Of a DNA stretch of 64,000 nucleotides, positions 59,754 to 64,000 are shown piece by piece. The number at the start of each line of letters is the position of its first letter. The first letter of the stretch is position 1. Position numbers and translations under genes: made by a program. The DNA is from Saprospiraceae bacterium (GTDB lineage Bacteria > Bacteroidota > Bacteroidia > Chitinophagales > Saprospiraceae): NCBI GenBank assembly GCA_029262995.1, contig JAJCYH010000023.1:62001-126000 (forward strand), in the 5' to 3' direction. The notes under the pieces are model-generated. The model saw only the letters and a program-made list of their open reading frames with translations, did not search any database and was not told the DNA's origin.

Positions 59754-61655
59754 TTGGTCAGTCTTCAAAATATCAATCTTTACTTTGGTAGTAATCATTT
59801 GCTTGATTCTATCAACTTTGTAATTTCTCCAGGAGAAAAGATTGCCCTAATTGGTAAAAACGGAGCAGGGAAAACCACTTTGTTTAAAATCATAACCAAT
59901 GAGATTTCTCCAGATTCAGGGCAAATAGCCATACCCGGAGATTTTAAAATTGGTTACCTTTCTCAGCACTTTGATTTTGATGATACAAAGGGCTTACAGG
60001 AAATATGCATGGAAGTATTCAAGGAATACTTTGATATGGAAGATATGGTCATTAAATTATCAGAAGAACTTGGCCATAACCCTAGTGAGAAAAGGATGAT
60101 AGAGATCCTAGAGAAACTTGATGAGCTAAATATTAAAATCCAGGCCGCAGTAGGAACAAACCCTCTTGCCGATATTGCAAAGATCCTTAAAGGATTAGGA
60201 TTTACAGAAGACCAATTCGACAAACCGGTCACCGATCTATCTGGAGGCTGGAAGATGCGTGTACAAATAGCCAAACTCTTACTTCTTAAACCAGATCTTC
60301 TTTTGTTGGATGAACCAGACAATCACTTGGATATCGAAGCTTTAATTTGGTTTGAAAAATATATCATCAATTATCCAGGAGCTGTATTGTTTATATCTCA
60401 TGATGTAGAATTCATGTCCAATACGGCCAACAGAATTCTGGAATTATCCAATAGAAAGATTTCCGACTACAAAAGTAATTACAGAAAGTACCTTGAATCA
60501 AAGGCACTTAGATTGGAAAAAGAAGAACAGGCATTTACCAATCAACAAAAGGAAATAAAGCAAAAGGAAAAAACTATTAATCGTTTCATGGCCAAAGCGA
60601 CCAAGACAAAGATGGCACAATCCATGAAAAAACAACTGGATAAGGTTGAAAGAATTGAGTTAGAATCAGAAGATATAACAAATATTAATATTCAATTTCC
60701 GCCAACACCACAAAGCGGTAAGCGTGTATTGAATGTGAAATCTTTATATAAATCTTTCGGTGACAAAAATGTCATTGCCGACCTTAATATGGAAATCGAA
60801 CGAGATTTAAAAATTGCTTTTGTAGGTCAAAATGGGCAAGGCAAATCAACATTGGTCAAATTAATAGCAGACAAACTAAAAGCGGACTCCGGAATAATTG
60901 AACTAGGGCACAACGTTATCGTTTCCTATTTTGCCCAGAATCAATCAGAAATATTTGACAACAAACTGGATGTATTAGAATCCCTTGAACTGCATGCAGA
61001 TGTTGAATTTGCTCCCTATGCCAGAAAAACACTTGGTGCTTTTGCTTTTTCAGGAGAAGATGTTTACAAGAAAGTATCTGTTCTTAGCGGGGGAGAAAAG
61101 TCTAGGTTGGCAATGGCTTGTATGGTTTCTCAAAAATCAAACTTCCTTTTATTAGATGAACCGACCAATCATTTGGACATCCAATCCAAAGCTAGATTGA
61201 AGCAGGCAATAGCCAATTACCCTGGCACTCTGATCATCGTATCACACGATAGAGATATATTAAGAGGTATTATTGATATTACCTATGAATTTAAAGAGGG
61301 TGAAATTCACCAACATTTAGGTGATTTGGATTATGTTTTAAATAAAAGAAAACAAGATGATATAAGAAGTTTTGAAACGCATAGTCTTGCAGTTAAATCT
61401 AATGCACAGACAAACAATGATTCTAAACTATCCTATCAAGAACAGAAGCAACTTAACCGTCAATTATCAAATACTGAAAAGAGAATTGAAGATATAGAAG
61501 CTAAAATAAAATCCATTCAAGAAAAACTTTACGACCCAGAATTCTTCAATTCAGATGATGGTCCGAAAGCCGTTAAAGAATTAAAACAACTTGAGGAATC
61601 CTTGACCAAGCAAAATACCAAATGGGACCAGTTGGTTATTAATCTAGAACAATAA
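59754..61655 (+). CDS. ABC-F family ATPase
   Basis: The 633-residue protein has two ABC domains in one chain and no membrane segment. First: Walker A GKNGAGKT (34-41), signature LSGGWKMRV, Walker B LLLLDEPDNHLD. Second: GQNGQGKST (about 358), LSGGEKSRLA, FLLLDEPTNHLD. The ABC-F linker lies between them and a coiled coil at the C-terminus (about 560-633). Members such as Uup and EttA act on ribosomes; this one is most like Uup/YdiF but the exact role is unknown. The start is TTG at 59754, right after the yqgE TAA. The last 12 bases overlap the convergent pseudouridine synthase gene. Confidence 0.94.
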   Translation: MVSLQNINLYFGSNHLLDSINFVISPGEKIALIGKNGAGKTTLFKIITNEISPDSGQIAIPGDFKIGYLSQHFDFDDTKGLQEICMEVFKEYFDMEDMVIKLSEELGHNPSEKRMIEILEKLDELNIKIQAAVGTNPLADIAKILKGLGFTEDQFDKPVTDLSGGWKMRVQIAKLLLLKPDLLLLDEPDNHLDIEALIWFEKYIINYPGAVLFISHDVEFMSNTANRILELSNRKISDYKSNYRKYLESKALRLEKEEQAFTNQQKEIKQKEKTINRFMAKATKTKMAQSMKKQLDKVERIELESEDITNINIQFPPTPQSGKRVLNVKSLYKSFGDKNVIADLNMEIERDLKIAFVGQNGQGKSTLVKLIADKLKADSGIIELGHNVIVSYFAQNQSEIFDNKLDVLESLELHADVEFAPYARKTLGAFAFSGEDVYKKVSVLSGGEKSRLAMACMVSQKSNFLLLDEPTNHLDIQSKARLKQAIANYPGTLIIVSHDRDILRGIIDITYEFKEGEIHQHLGDLDYVLNKRKQDDIRSFETHSLAVKSNAQTNNDSKLSYQEQKQLNRQLSNTEKRIEDIEAKIKSIQEKLYDPEFFNSDDGPKAVKELKQLEESLTKQNTKWDQLVINLEQ

Positions 61656-62372
61656 ATTTTTATCCATTTGATTTATCGATGCTCTCATATCTTTGGGCAT
61701 CTCTGTTTCCAACAATACCTTTTCTCCTGTGAAAGCATGTTCGAAATGTAGCTGAGCAGCATGCAGTGCCTGCCTGTTTAATAATGGTCGCTCTTCTTGA
61801 TTATTATTTCTTCTGTATTTTTTCTTAAAACTAGATAAATAGAATGGTTCACCGTTTCCATATAATGTATCGCATATTACTGGACAGTTAATAGCTTTCA
61901 TATGCACTCTAATCTGATGCATCCTACCTGTAATCAACTTAACTTCAACCAAAGAAAACTGGTGCCAGGTCTTTACAATCCTGTACTTACTTATGGCTTG
62001 TTTTCCCTCATGATCAATCAGCATGCCTTTTGACTTGGACTTAGCTTGAGCTAAATTCAATTCAATCAATCCAACATCTTCAATAGGCTTATTGTGAACC
62101 AAAGCGAAGTAATGCTTGTCAATTTTCCTGTTTTCAAACATTCTAGAGAACCGCTTATGCGCTTCTTCACTTTTTGTAAATAACATAATACCACTAGTGT
62201 CCTTATCCAGTCTGTGATTCACAAAAATCTCATCTCTATAGGCACTTAAAGAAGTATACATGTTTGGAATTGTCTCATCATAACGATCTGGGATGGAGAG
62301 GTATCCAGCAGGTTTGTCGACTACTATGATATAGTCATCTTCAAAAATGATTTTCCAACGAAGAGGTTTCAT
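61644..62372 (-). CDS. RluA-family pseudouridine synthase
   Basis: The enzyme isomerises uridine to pseudouridine in rRNA or tRNA. The 242-residue protein has IIVVDKPAGYLSIPDR, the catalytic-Asp motif VNHRLDKDTSGIML (Asp56), and VKLITGRMHQIRVHM near the C-terminal half, with no S4 domain. The absence of S4 and the length point to an RluA/TruC-type member; the exact site is unknown. It starts at the last base of the RibF-glycosyltransferase stop, so it is co-translated with that gene. Confidence 0.92.
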   Translation of the reverse strand: MKPLRWKIIFEDDYIIVVDKPAGYLSIPDRYDETIPNMYTSLSAYRDEIFVNHRLDKDTSGIMLFTKSEEAHKRFSRMFENRKIDKHYFALVHNKPIEDVGLIELNLAQAKSKSKGMLIDHEGKQAISKYRIVKTWHQFSLVEVKLITGRMHQIRVHMKAINCPVICDTLYGNGEPFYLSSFKKKYRRNNNQEERPLLNRQALHAAQLHFEHAFTGEKVLLETEMPKDMRASINQMDKNLLF

Positions 62373-64000
62373 TATTTAGGGAATGATAGTTGAGAAAATC
62401 TTTTTTTACAAAGTATAAAATATTGGAACACAATAGATCCTTGGAATCGACCTTCTAAATTAGGTTCATAGATTCTATATTTATTAATAACCGAAGTAGT
62501 GATTCTTCTTTTATTGATCAACTTGAATATATTTTTGTAAAATGAGAAGTGAGCCAATAATATCGCTAATACACCATTAAACTTCAGTTGAAACATAAAG
62601 TTTAGTCCAGCAATACCATCCATAACTAATCTTGAAGGAAGTTTCCATAGCAATGAGAAAAAGCTTTCGTTCTTAAAAAGAGTAAATAGGTTATTGCGAA
62701 AGTTTAAGTATATTTTTCGTTTGTTGTCATATTCCAATGTGCCTCCACCTAGATGATACACTACAGATTCTGGAATAACCGCAATTCTATAGCCTGCATT
62801 TCGAAGTCTCCAGCAAAGATCAATCTCTTCATGATGCGCAAAGAAATCATTATCGAATCCTCCCATTTCAACATACAATTCTTTCCTAATTACAAATGCT
62901 GCTCCAGTGGCCCAAAAAACAGACTCAACAGAATCATACTGTCCTTCATCTTGTTCTACGGTGTCAAATATTCTTCCTCTGCAGAACGGATATGCCAAAG
63001 CATCTATATAACCACCACTGGCACCAGCATACTCAAAAGAATCTTGTTCTTCATAGGATAAAACCTTAGGCATTGCGACGGCATAATCTTTATTTTCTTC
63101 AAGAAATTTGGTAATAGGATCTAACCAATTTTCGTTTACCATAACATCAGAATTTAACATCACAATGTATTCTGAATTGATCATATCCATCGCACGATTA
63201 TATGCTTCTGCAAATCCATAGTTTTTAGACATCTGAATGACCTTGATTTCAGGAAACCATTTATTCACGTACTCCACAGAATGATCAGAACTGGCATTGT
63301 CTATTAATACAACATCAAATTCTTCATCACTACTGTAACTTATGGAAGGAAGAAAATCTTCAAGCAAATGCTGTGTATTGTAATTAAGGATGGCAATGCA
63401 AACTTTCGCCTTGGGTCTTTGTGCACAATCACTAAAATATTCCAATGCAGAATCTCTATCCTTATGCAATTGCTGCTTCAATGATTCAATGCCATCAAAC
63501 TTTTGCTCATGCCTGATAAAATGGAGTATTTCTACAGATATACGTTCATCATATATATCATCATTAAAATCAAATATATTTATCTCTATGGATTTTCGAT
63601 GGTCAAGCCCAACTGTTGGAACGTCACCTATATAGAGCATTCCATTATATTCTCCCTTGTTTGTGTTTACCTTACAAGCATAAATACCATCCATTGGAAC
63701 CAGCTTTTTGGAATCTTCAAGTTCCAAATTGGCAGTTGGGAAACCTATTTCAGTTCCTAATTTTCGACCTCTTATAACCTTACCAGAAATTTGATACGGA
63801 TGGTTTAATAAATTATTGGCTTGGTACAAATCACCATTTTGCAATGCTAATCTAATTTTTGAAGAGCTTATCGTTAACTCATCCATTTCTTGTGCAGGTA
63901 TCTCAACTATATTAAAGTTGTAAGTATCCTTAACCTGTCTCAGCAAATTAATATCCCCTGTTCTGTTAATTCCAAATCGATGATCATATCCTATGACAAG
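62372..64000 (-). CDS. ribF: RibF (riboflavin kinase/FAD synthetase) fused to family 2 glycosyltransferase, 5' end beyond window
   Basis: An uninterrupted frame of 542 visible codons enters from the window edge. It opens within the RibF adenylyltransferase domain (VIGYDHRFGINRTGDIN), continues through SSSKIRLAL and the riboflavin kinase domain (GRKLGTEIGFPTANLEL, DGIYACKV, FDGIESLKQQLHKD), and then, after a short linker (SDCAQRPKAK, about residue 190), runs into a GT-A glycosyltransferase: VCIAILNYNTQ, VVLIDNASSDHS, MSKNYGFAEAYNRAM, the DxD-like MLNSDVMV, GAAFVIRKELYVEMGGFD and FFAHHEEIDLCWR. The C-terminus has hydrophobic helices that could touch the membrane. No ATG, GTG or TTG occurs close to the GT start, so a separate GT gene is unlikely. 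The GT acceptor is unknown. Confidence 0.85.
   Translation of the reverse strand, partial: LVIGYDHRFGINRTGDINLLRQVKDTYNFNIVEIPAQEMDELTISSSKIRLALQNGDLYQANNLLNHPYQISGKVIRGRKLGTEIGFPTANLELEDSKKLVPMDGIYACKVNTNKGEYNGMLYIGDVPTVGLDHRKSIEINIFDFNDDIYDERISVEILHFIRHEQKFDGIESLKQQLHKDRDSALEYFSDCAQRPKAKVCIAILNYNTQHLLEDFLPSISYSSDEEFDVVLIDNASSDHSVEYVNKWFPEIKVIQMSKNYGFAEAYNRAMDMINSEYIVMLNSDVMVNENWLDPITKFLEENKDYAVAMPKVLSYEEQDSFEYAGASGGYIDALAYPFCRGRIFDTVEQDEGQYDSVESVFWATGAAFVIRKELYVEMGGFDNDFFAHHEEIDLCWRLRNAGYRIAVIPESVVYHLGGGTLEYDNKRKIYLNFRNNLFTLFKNESFFSLLWKLPSRLVMDGIAGLNFMFQLKFNGVLAILLAHFSFYKNIFKLINKRRITTSVINKYRIYEPNLEGRFQGSIVFQYFILCKKRFSQLSFPK

Follow-up and report, generated by a model that had tools for sequence, protein, structure and literature searches.

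A FAD synthetase fused in frame to a family 2 glycosyltransferase as a family trait in Saprospiraceae, with an excess of A-tracts at the joint

We analysed a 64,000-nucleotide stretch of a contig from a Saprospiraceae bacterium (hereafter the window) and identified at its end a minus-strand gene in which the FAD synthetase RibF is fused to a family 2 glycosyltransferase (GT2). In the window, the frame ran from position 64000 to a stop codon at 62372-62374, 542 codons with no stop inside. Read on the same contig, the whole gene starts with ATG and encodes 661 amino acids (G000:C23:124375-126357, without the stop codon); the window covers residues 120-661 and the stop (62372..64000), and residues 1-119 lie past its end. 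All parts are on the minus strand. The RibF half (63428..64000, residues 120-310) comprises the rest of the FAD synthetase domain, the riboflavin kinase domain and a C-terminal helix, as placed by PF06574, PF01687, the model of a fused relative (L075) and PDB matches over the RibF length. It is followed by a linker of approximately residues 311-316 (63410..63427), located by the junction reading and by residues 313-316 of the L075 model, where pLDDT was below 50; no A-tract was present, the longest A run at the joint being three. The GT2 half (62375..63409, residues 317-661), delimited by PF00535 and a model with pLDDT 95.1, contains the motifs IDNASSD, NSDV and HHEEIDLCWR and ends in a basic, helical C-terminus. 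Pfam searches of the 661-residue protein placed FAD_syn at 14-166, Flavokinase at 184-308 and Glycos_transf_2 from residue 320, all above their cut-offs. An earlier note on this DNA had described a FAD synthetase fused in frame to a GT2 enzyme, and the open frame and the three domains bear this out; the ten-residue linker that it gave is close to the 11-residue gap between the Pfam domains, and the two motifs that it assigned to the glycosyltransferase (GT), IDNASSD and NSDV, are both present in the GT half.

A profile search of the source genome detected one PF06574 match, the fused gene itself. The adjoining gene encodes an RluA-type pseudouridine synthase (61644..62372, minus strand), assigned from the open reading frame list, the neighbour clusters and PF00849 for a cluster member in locus L049. 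Its start codon shares one base with the stop codon of the fused gene, and because of this overlap the two genes probably form one operon; the RluA-type gene was also a recurrent next neighbour of the fused gene across the family.

We then checked the occurrence of the fusion in other genomes. Among 14 genomes of the same genus, including the source, 13 had a match, and all 13 readable loci were fused. In the family, 289 of 398 genomes had a whole-protein, one-frame match at E≤1e-130 and 358 of 398 had a RibF match at 1e-25; the figure of 289 is inexact, as it includes at least five loci in which a stop interrupts the joint (L025, L242, L244, L245 and L246) and omits six long-linker fusions below the threshold (L156-L159, L161 and L162). 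In total, 220 distinct fused junctions were read in the family, and named records contributed 15 fused loci, one of them (L133) from Neolewinella persica DSM 23188. No fusion was seen outside the Saprospiraceae-type family (f1) at thresholds that divergent fusions could escape: the phylum draw contained 5 spanning genomes among 395 and the order draw 34 matching genomes among 198, all of them from f1. One candidate from the phylum draw (G571), with a match over part of RibF and an internal stop, was rejected, as its locus (L068) encodes a separate 328-residue GT with no RibF hit. The fusion is a trait of the family, present in most of its sampled genomes. The earlier note had left room for an assembly or sequencing error that deleted a stop between two genes, and RibF and GT genes are indeed separate in other families and in some genera of this one, where relatives with a stop and a start at the joint were found. 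However, such an arrangement occurred in none of the 13 same-genus loci. Because the joint was open in all of these, in the 220 family junctions and in the record of the named N. persica strain, which together supply the many independent genomes that the note had sought, we regard an error of this kind as excluded for practical purposes, and the fusion, as read from the sequence, as real. In genus g62, three loci (L156, L157 and L162) had in-frame linkers of 41 to 77 residues with repeat-like sequence.

Both halves look like working enzymes, judging from motifs and models. The window's protein scored 160.3 bits with PF06574 (cut-off 27), 139.4 bits with PF01687 (cut-off 19.6) and 271.8 bits with TIGR00083 (cut-off 184.35); of six narrower PRK05627 models, NF004162 was over its cut-off and the other five were under theirs. 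Across 28 fused proteins, most residues of the RibF motifs GSFDGVHxGH, ISSSKIR and GFPTAN, which we take to be the nucleotide- and flavin-site motifs, were invariant or nearly so, and this was also the case for the GT motif residues. The RibF half would thus be expected to make FMN and FAD. An AlphaFold model of the fused relative L075 had a mean pLDDT of 89.7, with values below 50 at the joint and a pTM of 0.59, and predicts two well-folded parts whose mutual orientation is unsure. In structure searches, the RibF part of this model matched solved FAD synthetases across their length.

The GT half scored 73.2 bits with PF00535 (cut-off 23.3), and an AlphaFold model of the window's GT alone gave, beside the pLDDT cited above, a pTM of 0.93. 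Foldseek assigned it to the GT-A fold; the best-ranked solved structures were polypeptide GalNAc transferases at 14-20% identity, and GlfT2 was among the GT matches of the fused-relative model. Four acidic residues of the GT half (D91, E197, E198 and D200) were invariant in 40 sequences; NSDV and EEID are presumably the acid motifs of GT2 enzymes. The basic, helical last 116 residues carry a net charge of +16. Kyte-Doolittle analysis revealed no clear membrane helix (best 19-residue hydrophobic window, 1.49). This charge together with the lack of a clear span suggests loose membrane binding. Such a GT-A-fold enzyme would transfer a sugar, probably at the inner membrane, and its basic C-terminus would hold the whole protein, RibF included, close to the membrane.

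GT orthologs were present across named Bacteroidota records. In 13 of 65 named unfused loci, a gene of an acyltransferase cluster lay directly upstream of the GT, and these 13 are from outside the family (L099, L101, L102, L104, L105, L109, L115, L116, L127, L134, L146, L150 and L152); the one cluster member scanned, that of L116, was PF03279. A similar-looking cluster (c14, named by eye) was upstream of the GT in 3 of 20 loci outside the family, and no acyltransferase was found beside the GT in the family loci looked at. The adjoining acyltransferase cluster in unfused loci hints that the GT may act on an envelope lipid, which would be its acceptor. In L099, L102, L104 and L116, genes of an inositol monophosphatase cluster and a UPF0004/radical-SAM cluster were also present upstream. 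Another arrangement was observed in 16 named loci, mostly of Flavobacteriaceae (L085, L100, L117, L120, L123-L125, L129, L130, L136, L137, L142, L144, L145, L151 and L153), in which the GT ortholog followed closely behind an opposite-strand gene and a gene on its own strand that belongs to an HSDR_N_2 cluster (one cluster member scanned); the opposite-strand gene appears, in our judgment, to resemble DNA polymerase III delta.

To trace how the fusion arose, we read 123 family loci, in part picked as separate, of which 83 were fused and 40 separate. In 12 of the 40 separate pairs, the two genes overlapped by 1, 4, 8, 32, 35 or 44 nt (counted to the first in-frame GT ATG); other pairs lay 5 to 462 nt apart, while in L182, an early branch, the gap reached 1359 nt. 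In the early branches of an LG tree, RibF and GT genes were separate but adjacent. Fused and separate states occurred together within genera g17, g62, g85, g109 and g128. Outside the family, the GT was not found beside RibF in any of 18 RibF loci read for 1.6-3.4 kb on each side, and in L062 it was 9.6 kb from RibF. At equal costs, parsimony favored a separate root (9 versus 12 changes), with eight fusions and one split, whereas weighting a fusion two or three times a split made one fusion and ten splits the cheapest history; two quick trees of 141 rows required 9 or 10 changes. Forcing the 83 fused rows into one clade cost only 9.8 log units (AU p 0.454), so a single fused clade is acceptable and several independent fusions are not claimed. 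As some genera keep adjacent, partly overlapping genes, it is likely that the two genes were neighbours first and were fused later through loss of the intervening stop; the order of events is not certain and depends on the cost ratio of fusions to splits. In genus g57 (L050, L160, L178 and L183), the distance from the RibF stop to the first GT ATG was 25-462 nt; a tandem TTGAATGG repeat directly followed the RibF stop in L050, and a shorter related repeat was present in L183. In L038, a CTG that may serve as the GT start overlaps the stop codon of RibF (CTGA, by eye), and neither ATG, GTG or TTG nor an A-tract was detected there.

Co-production of RibF and GT from one frame follows from the sequence, and the fusion would fix co-production rather than pass a metabolite. 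The earlier note had offered co-expression and a functional link among its explanations. That one frame gives both enzymes stands; co-expression as the reason for the fusion, and a direct link of FAD synthesis to the glycosyltransferase, we take as no more than possibilities. It had also reported no start codon near the junction from which the GT could be made alone. We found no ATG or GTG there, but three in-frame TTG codons (63443-63445, 63467-63469 and 63479-63481), read by eye as the sole standard starts near the joint, are present in the stretch of the RibF C-terminal helix at 63443..63481 (minus strand). No conserved internal start was detected in the 83 fused loci, as ATG occurred in 19 of 83 junction windows against 25.4 expected; since starts were no commoner at the joint than elsewhere in these genes, the three TTG codons look like chance.

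A feature that is missing from the window's gene occurred elsewhere in the family, namely runs of nine or more A at the joint, defined as the region between RibF residue 300 and the GT core. The 266 junctions compared were a non-random set: separate loci were included deliberately, 24 junctions were removed as identical, and loci whose tblastn match ended short of the joint were excluded. For counts per group, 15 named records were treated as their own groups, giving 121 groups with 106 coded genera. Such tracts were found in 37 of 266 junctions: 32 of 220 fused, 5 of 37 out-of-frame and none of nine in-frame-stop loci. Same-length windows in the bodies of fused genes had only 4 in 6230 (Fisher test, 6e-44, with rows not independent). 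The fused loci had A9 (13 loci) or A10 (19 loci) and none longer. Codon resampling with the same amino acids predicted 12.2 loci, and with one locus per group (n=103) 16.4 were observed, where the amino acids and codon use would give 6.4 (sd 1.9); this control omits replication slippage. Of 24 Lys-Lys-Lys triplets at the joint, 16 were encoded entirely by AAA, compared with none of 28 in gene bodies and 1 of 25 in flanking genes. Tracts were also present in 10 of 45 fused loci with GC >0.5. Outside the family, they were found in none of 19 RibF ends and none of 86 GT starts, and within it none occurred among the named records. That A-tracts are in excess at the joint is statistically solid for these genomes. 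By genus, at least one locus with a tract was present in 23 of 106 coded genera. Of these, 16 were sampled at more than one locus: six (g16, g17, g21, g80, g90 and g101; RibF DNA identity 60-85%) had a tract in all loci and ten in only some, such as g120 with five of six.

An A9-A11 tract would let slippage yield both free RibF and RibF-GT. We suggest that in part of the Saprospiraceae the joint may be a programmed slippage switch, which would make free FAD synthetase and a membrane-directed fusion in a ratio set by slippage, from in-frame (32 loci) or out-of-frame (5 loci) tracts; we hold this as a hypothesis that falls just short of an even chance. In the five out-of-frame loci (L041, L043, L047, L165 and L252), which have an A10/A11 tract, the RibF frame and the GT frame are one base apart; lengthening the tract by a single base, or a ribosomal shift of -1, brings the two into one frame. 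None of these five has a GT ATG, and three lack any standard start, a pattern to be expected of slippage-dependent expression; in 41 tract-less separate loci, the GT start was ATG in 30, GTG or TTG in 10 and none in one. The common direction of the five was considered as evidence and rejected, because 23 of 32 tract-less out-of-frame loci have the same offset. A stop in the alternative frame within one codon after the tract was found in 13 of 32 loci against 27% in the control (p 0.07, rows not independent), a difference that did not reach significance. Against the switch count these non-significant stops, the patchy occurrence within genera and the absence of a tract from 188 of 220 fused genes, the window's among them.

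The same three observations agree with a somewhat less probable but still weighty alternative, that the tracts are neutral: a freely drifting linker would let homopolymers survive or expand, with the slippage unused. The linker sequence is not conserved, slippage at the joint would cost only the GT, and the codon-resampling control contains no model of replication slippage. However, drift of this kind fits poorly with the per-group excess (over twice the expectation), with the presence of the tract in all four g17 loci at 60-66% RibF DNA identity, and with the density and strand of the runs. The joint has 2.16 A≥9 per kb, whereas A-or-T runs of nine occur at 0.19 per kb in intergenic sequence (and 0.011 per kb in coding sequence) of 34 family loci, and T≥9 was seen once at the joint versus 33 times for A≥9. 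Phase variation of surface-sugar genes occurs in other bacteria, and replication slippage in the A-tract could similarly toggle the GT half between cells, since the homopolymer sits between an essential enzyme and a GT, and the g17 loci, with A9 or A10 in all four, are in frame in three and out in one. This we consider improbable: the frame is kept in 32 of 37 tract loci, where random switching predicts about one third, no fused locus reaches A11, and one genome per species was sampled. Equally doubtful is an additional production of the GT half by itself through initiation within the joint, with the A-rich stretch serving as an initiation region of the kind used in Bacteroidota. The tract runs directly into an ATG in four loci (L020, L021, L312 and L269) and ends a median of 11 nt upstream of the GT core; but in-frame ATG was not above expectation at the joint, the ATG of L269 in g120 is ATA in L196, L300, L316 and L326, which keep the tract (by eye), and A≥9 was absent from the starts of all 30 separate GT genes with ATG as well as from those outside the family.

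Taken together, we have considerable confidence in an overall reading of the gene as one polypeptide with two complete enzymes, which would have arisen from neighbours that later fused, with an envelope-lipid GT near the membrane, fixed co-production and, in some genera, the tract-based slippage graded on its own above. RibF is an essential enzyme and its tie to sugar transfer was unexpected; because the fusion is present in most of the family, its cells would make FAD with a glycosyltransferase-bearing enzyme. The family also offers a natural series for the study of gene fusion, with separate, overlapping, tract-joined and fused genes, in which the tracts may be stepping stones or regulators. 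If the slippage switch is true, coupled neighbours, slippage-joined genes and the permanent fusion seen in the window would form a continuum, with the fused state at one end. Annotation of ribF may conceal a conserved GT in these genomes or split it, and the genes of the five out-of-frame tract loci would probably be annotated as split or broken.

No earlier report of a RibF-GT2 fusion was recognised in the literature as judged by titles and the beginnings of abstracts, and no title pointed to an A-tract at a RibF gene. A catalogue of riboflavin-gene fusions (PMC4921024, with its figure and tables) may already list RibF-GT2, and in the covered part of PMC3711429 no mention of ribF or riboflavin was found. 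The portions covered of two papers on lipooligosaccharide (LOS) of Bacteroides and Capnocytophaga (PMC5850320 and PMC5156936) tied no gene to this GT. The RibF of Corynebacterium ammoniagenes (2x0k) aligned to the RibF half of the fused model with a TM-score of 0.80 by target length; compared with known RibF proteins (TIGR00083), the protein described here has a GT2 enzyme of approximately 345 residues attached at its C-terminus. The GT half shares the common GT-A fold of GT2 enzymes (PF00535) and falls in an ortholog group of Bacteroidota characterised by the EEID motif and by a C-terminus that is basic and helical. Another fusion involves the FAD synthetase of higher plants, which, according to the abstracted part of PMC9678776, is joined to an inactivated FAD pyrophosphatase. 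Both are FAD synthetases with an extra domain; however, the plant partner is an inactive enzyme of flavin metabolism, whereas the partner here is a glycosyltransferase with intact motifs. As for the tracts, runs of nine A are known to slip, and many bacteria avoid them in their coding sequences (PMC1088944); ribosomes slide on AAA repeats (PMC4363877). Slippage brings two overlapping frames together in Shigella flexneri mxiE (PMC1088944). This resembles L041, L043, L047, L165 and L252, where one base more in the tract is predicted from the sequence to join the RibF and GT frames. A parallel to the tracts described above is dnaX of Thermus thermophilus, in which transcriptional slippage on A9 gives two products from one gene (PMC1088944); here, likewise, about nine A's in a coding sequence could give a long and a short product. 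In contrast to dnaX, the tract lies at the joint of two enzymes, is confined to some members of the family and missing from the window's gene, and its slippage is putative.
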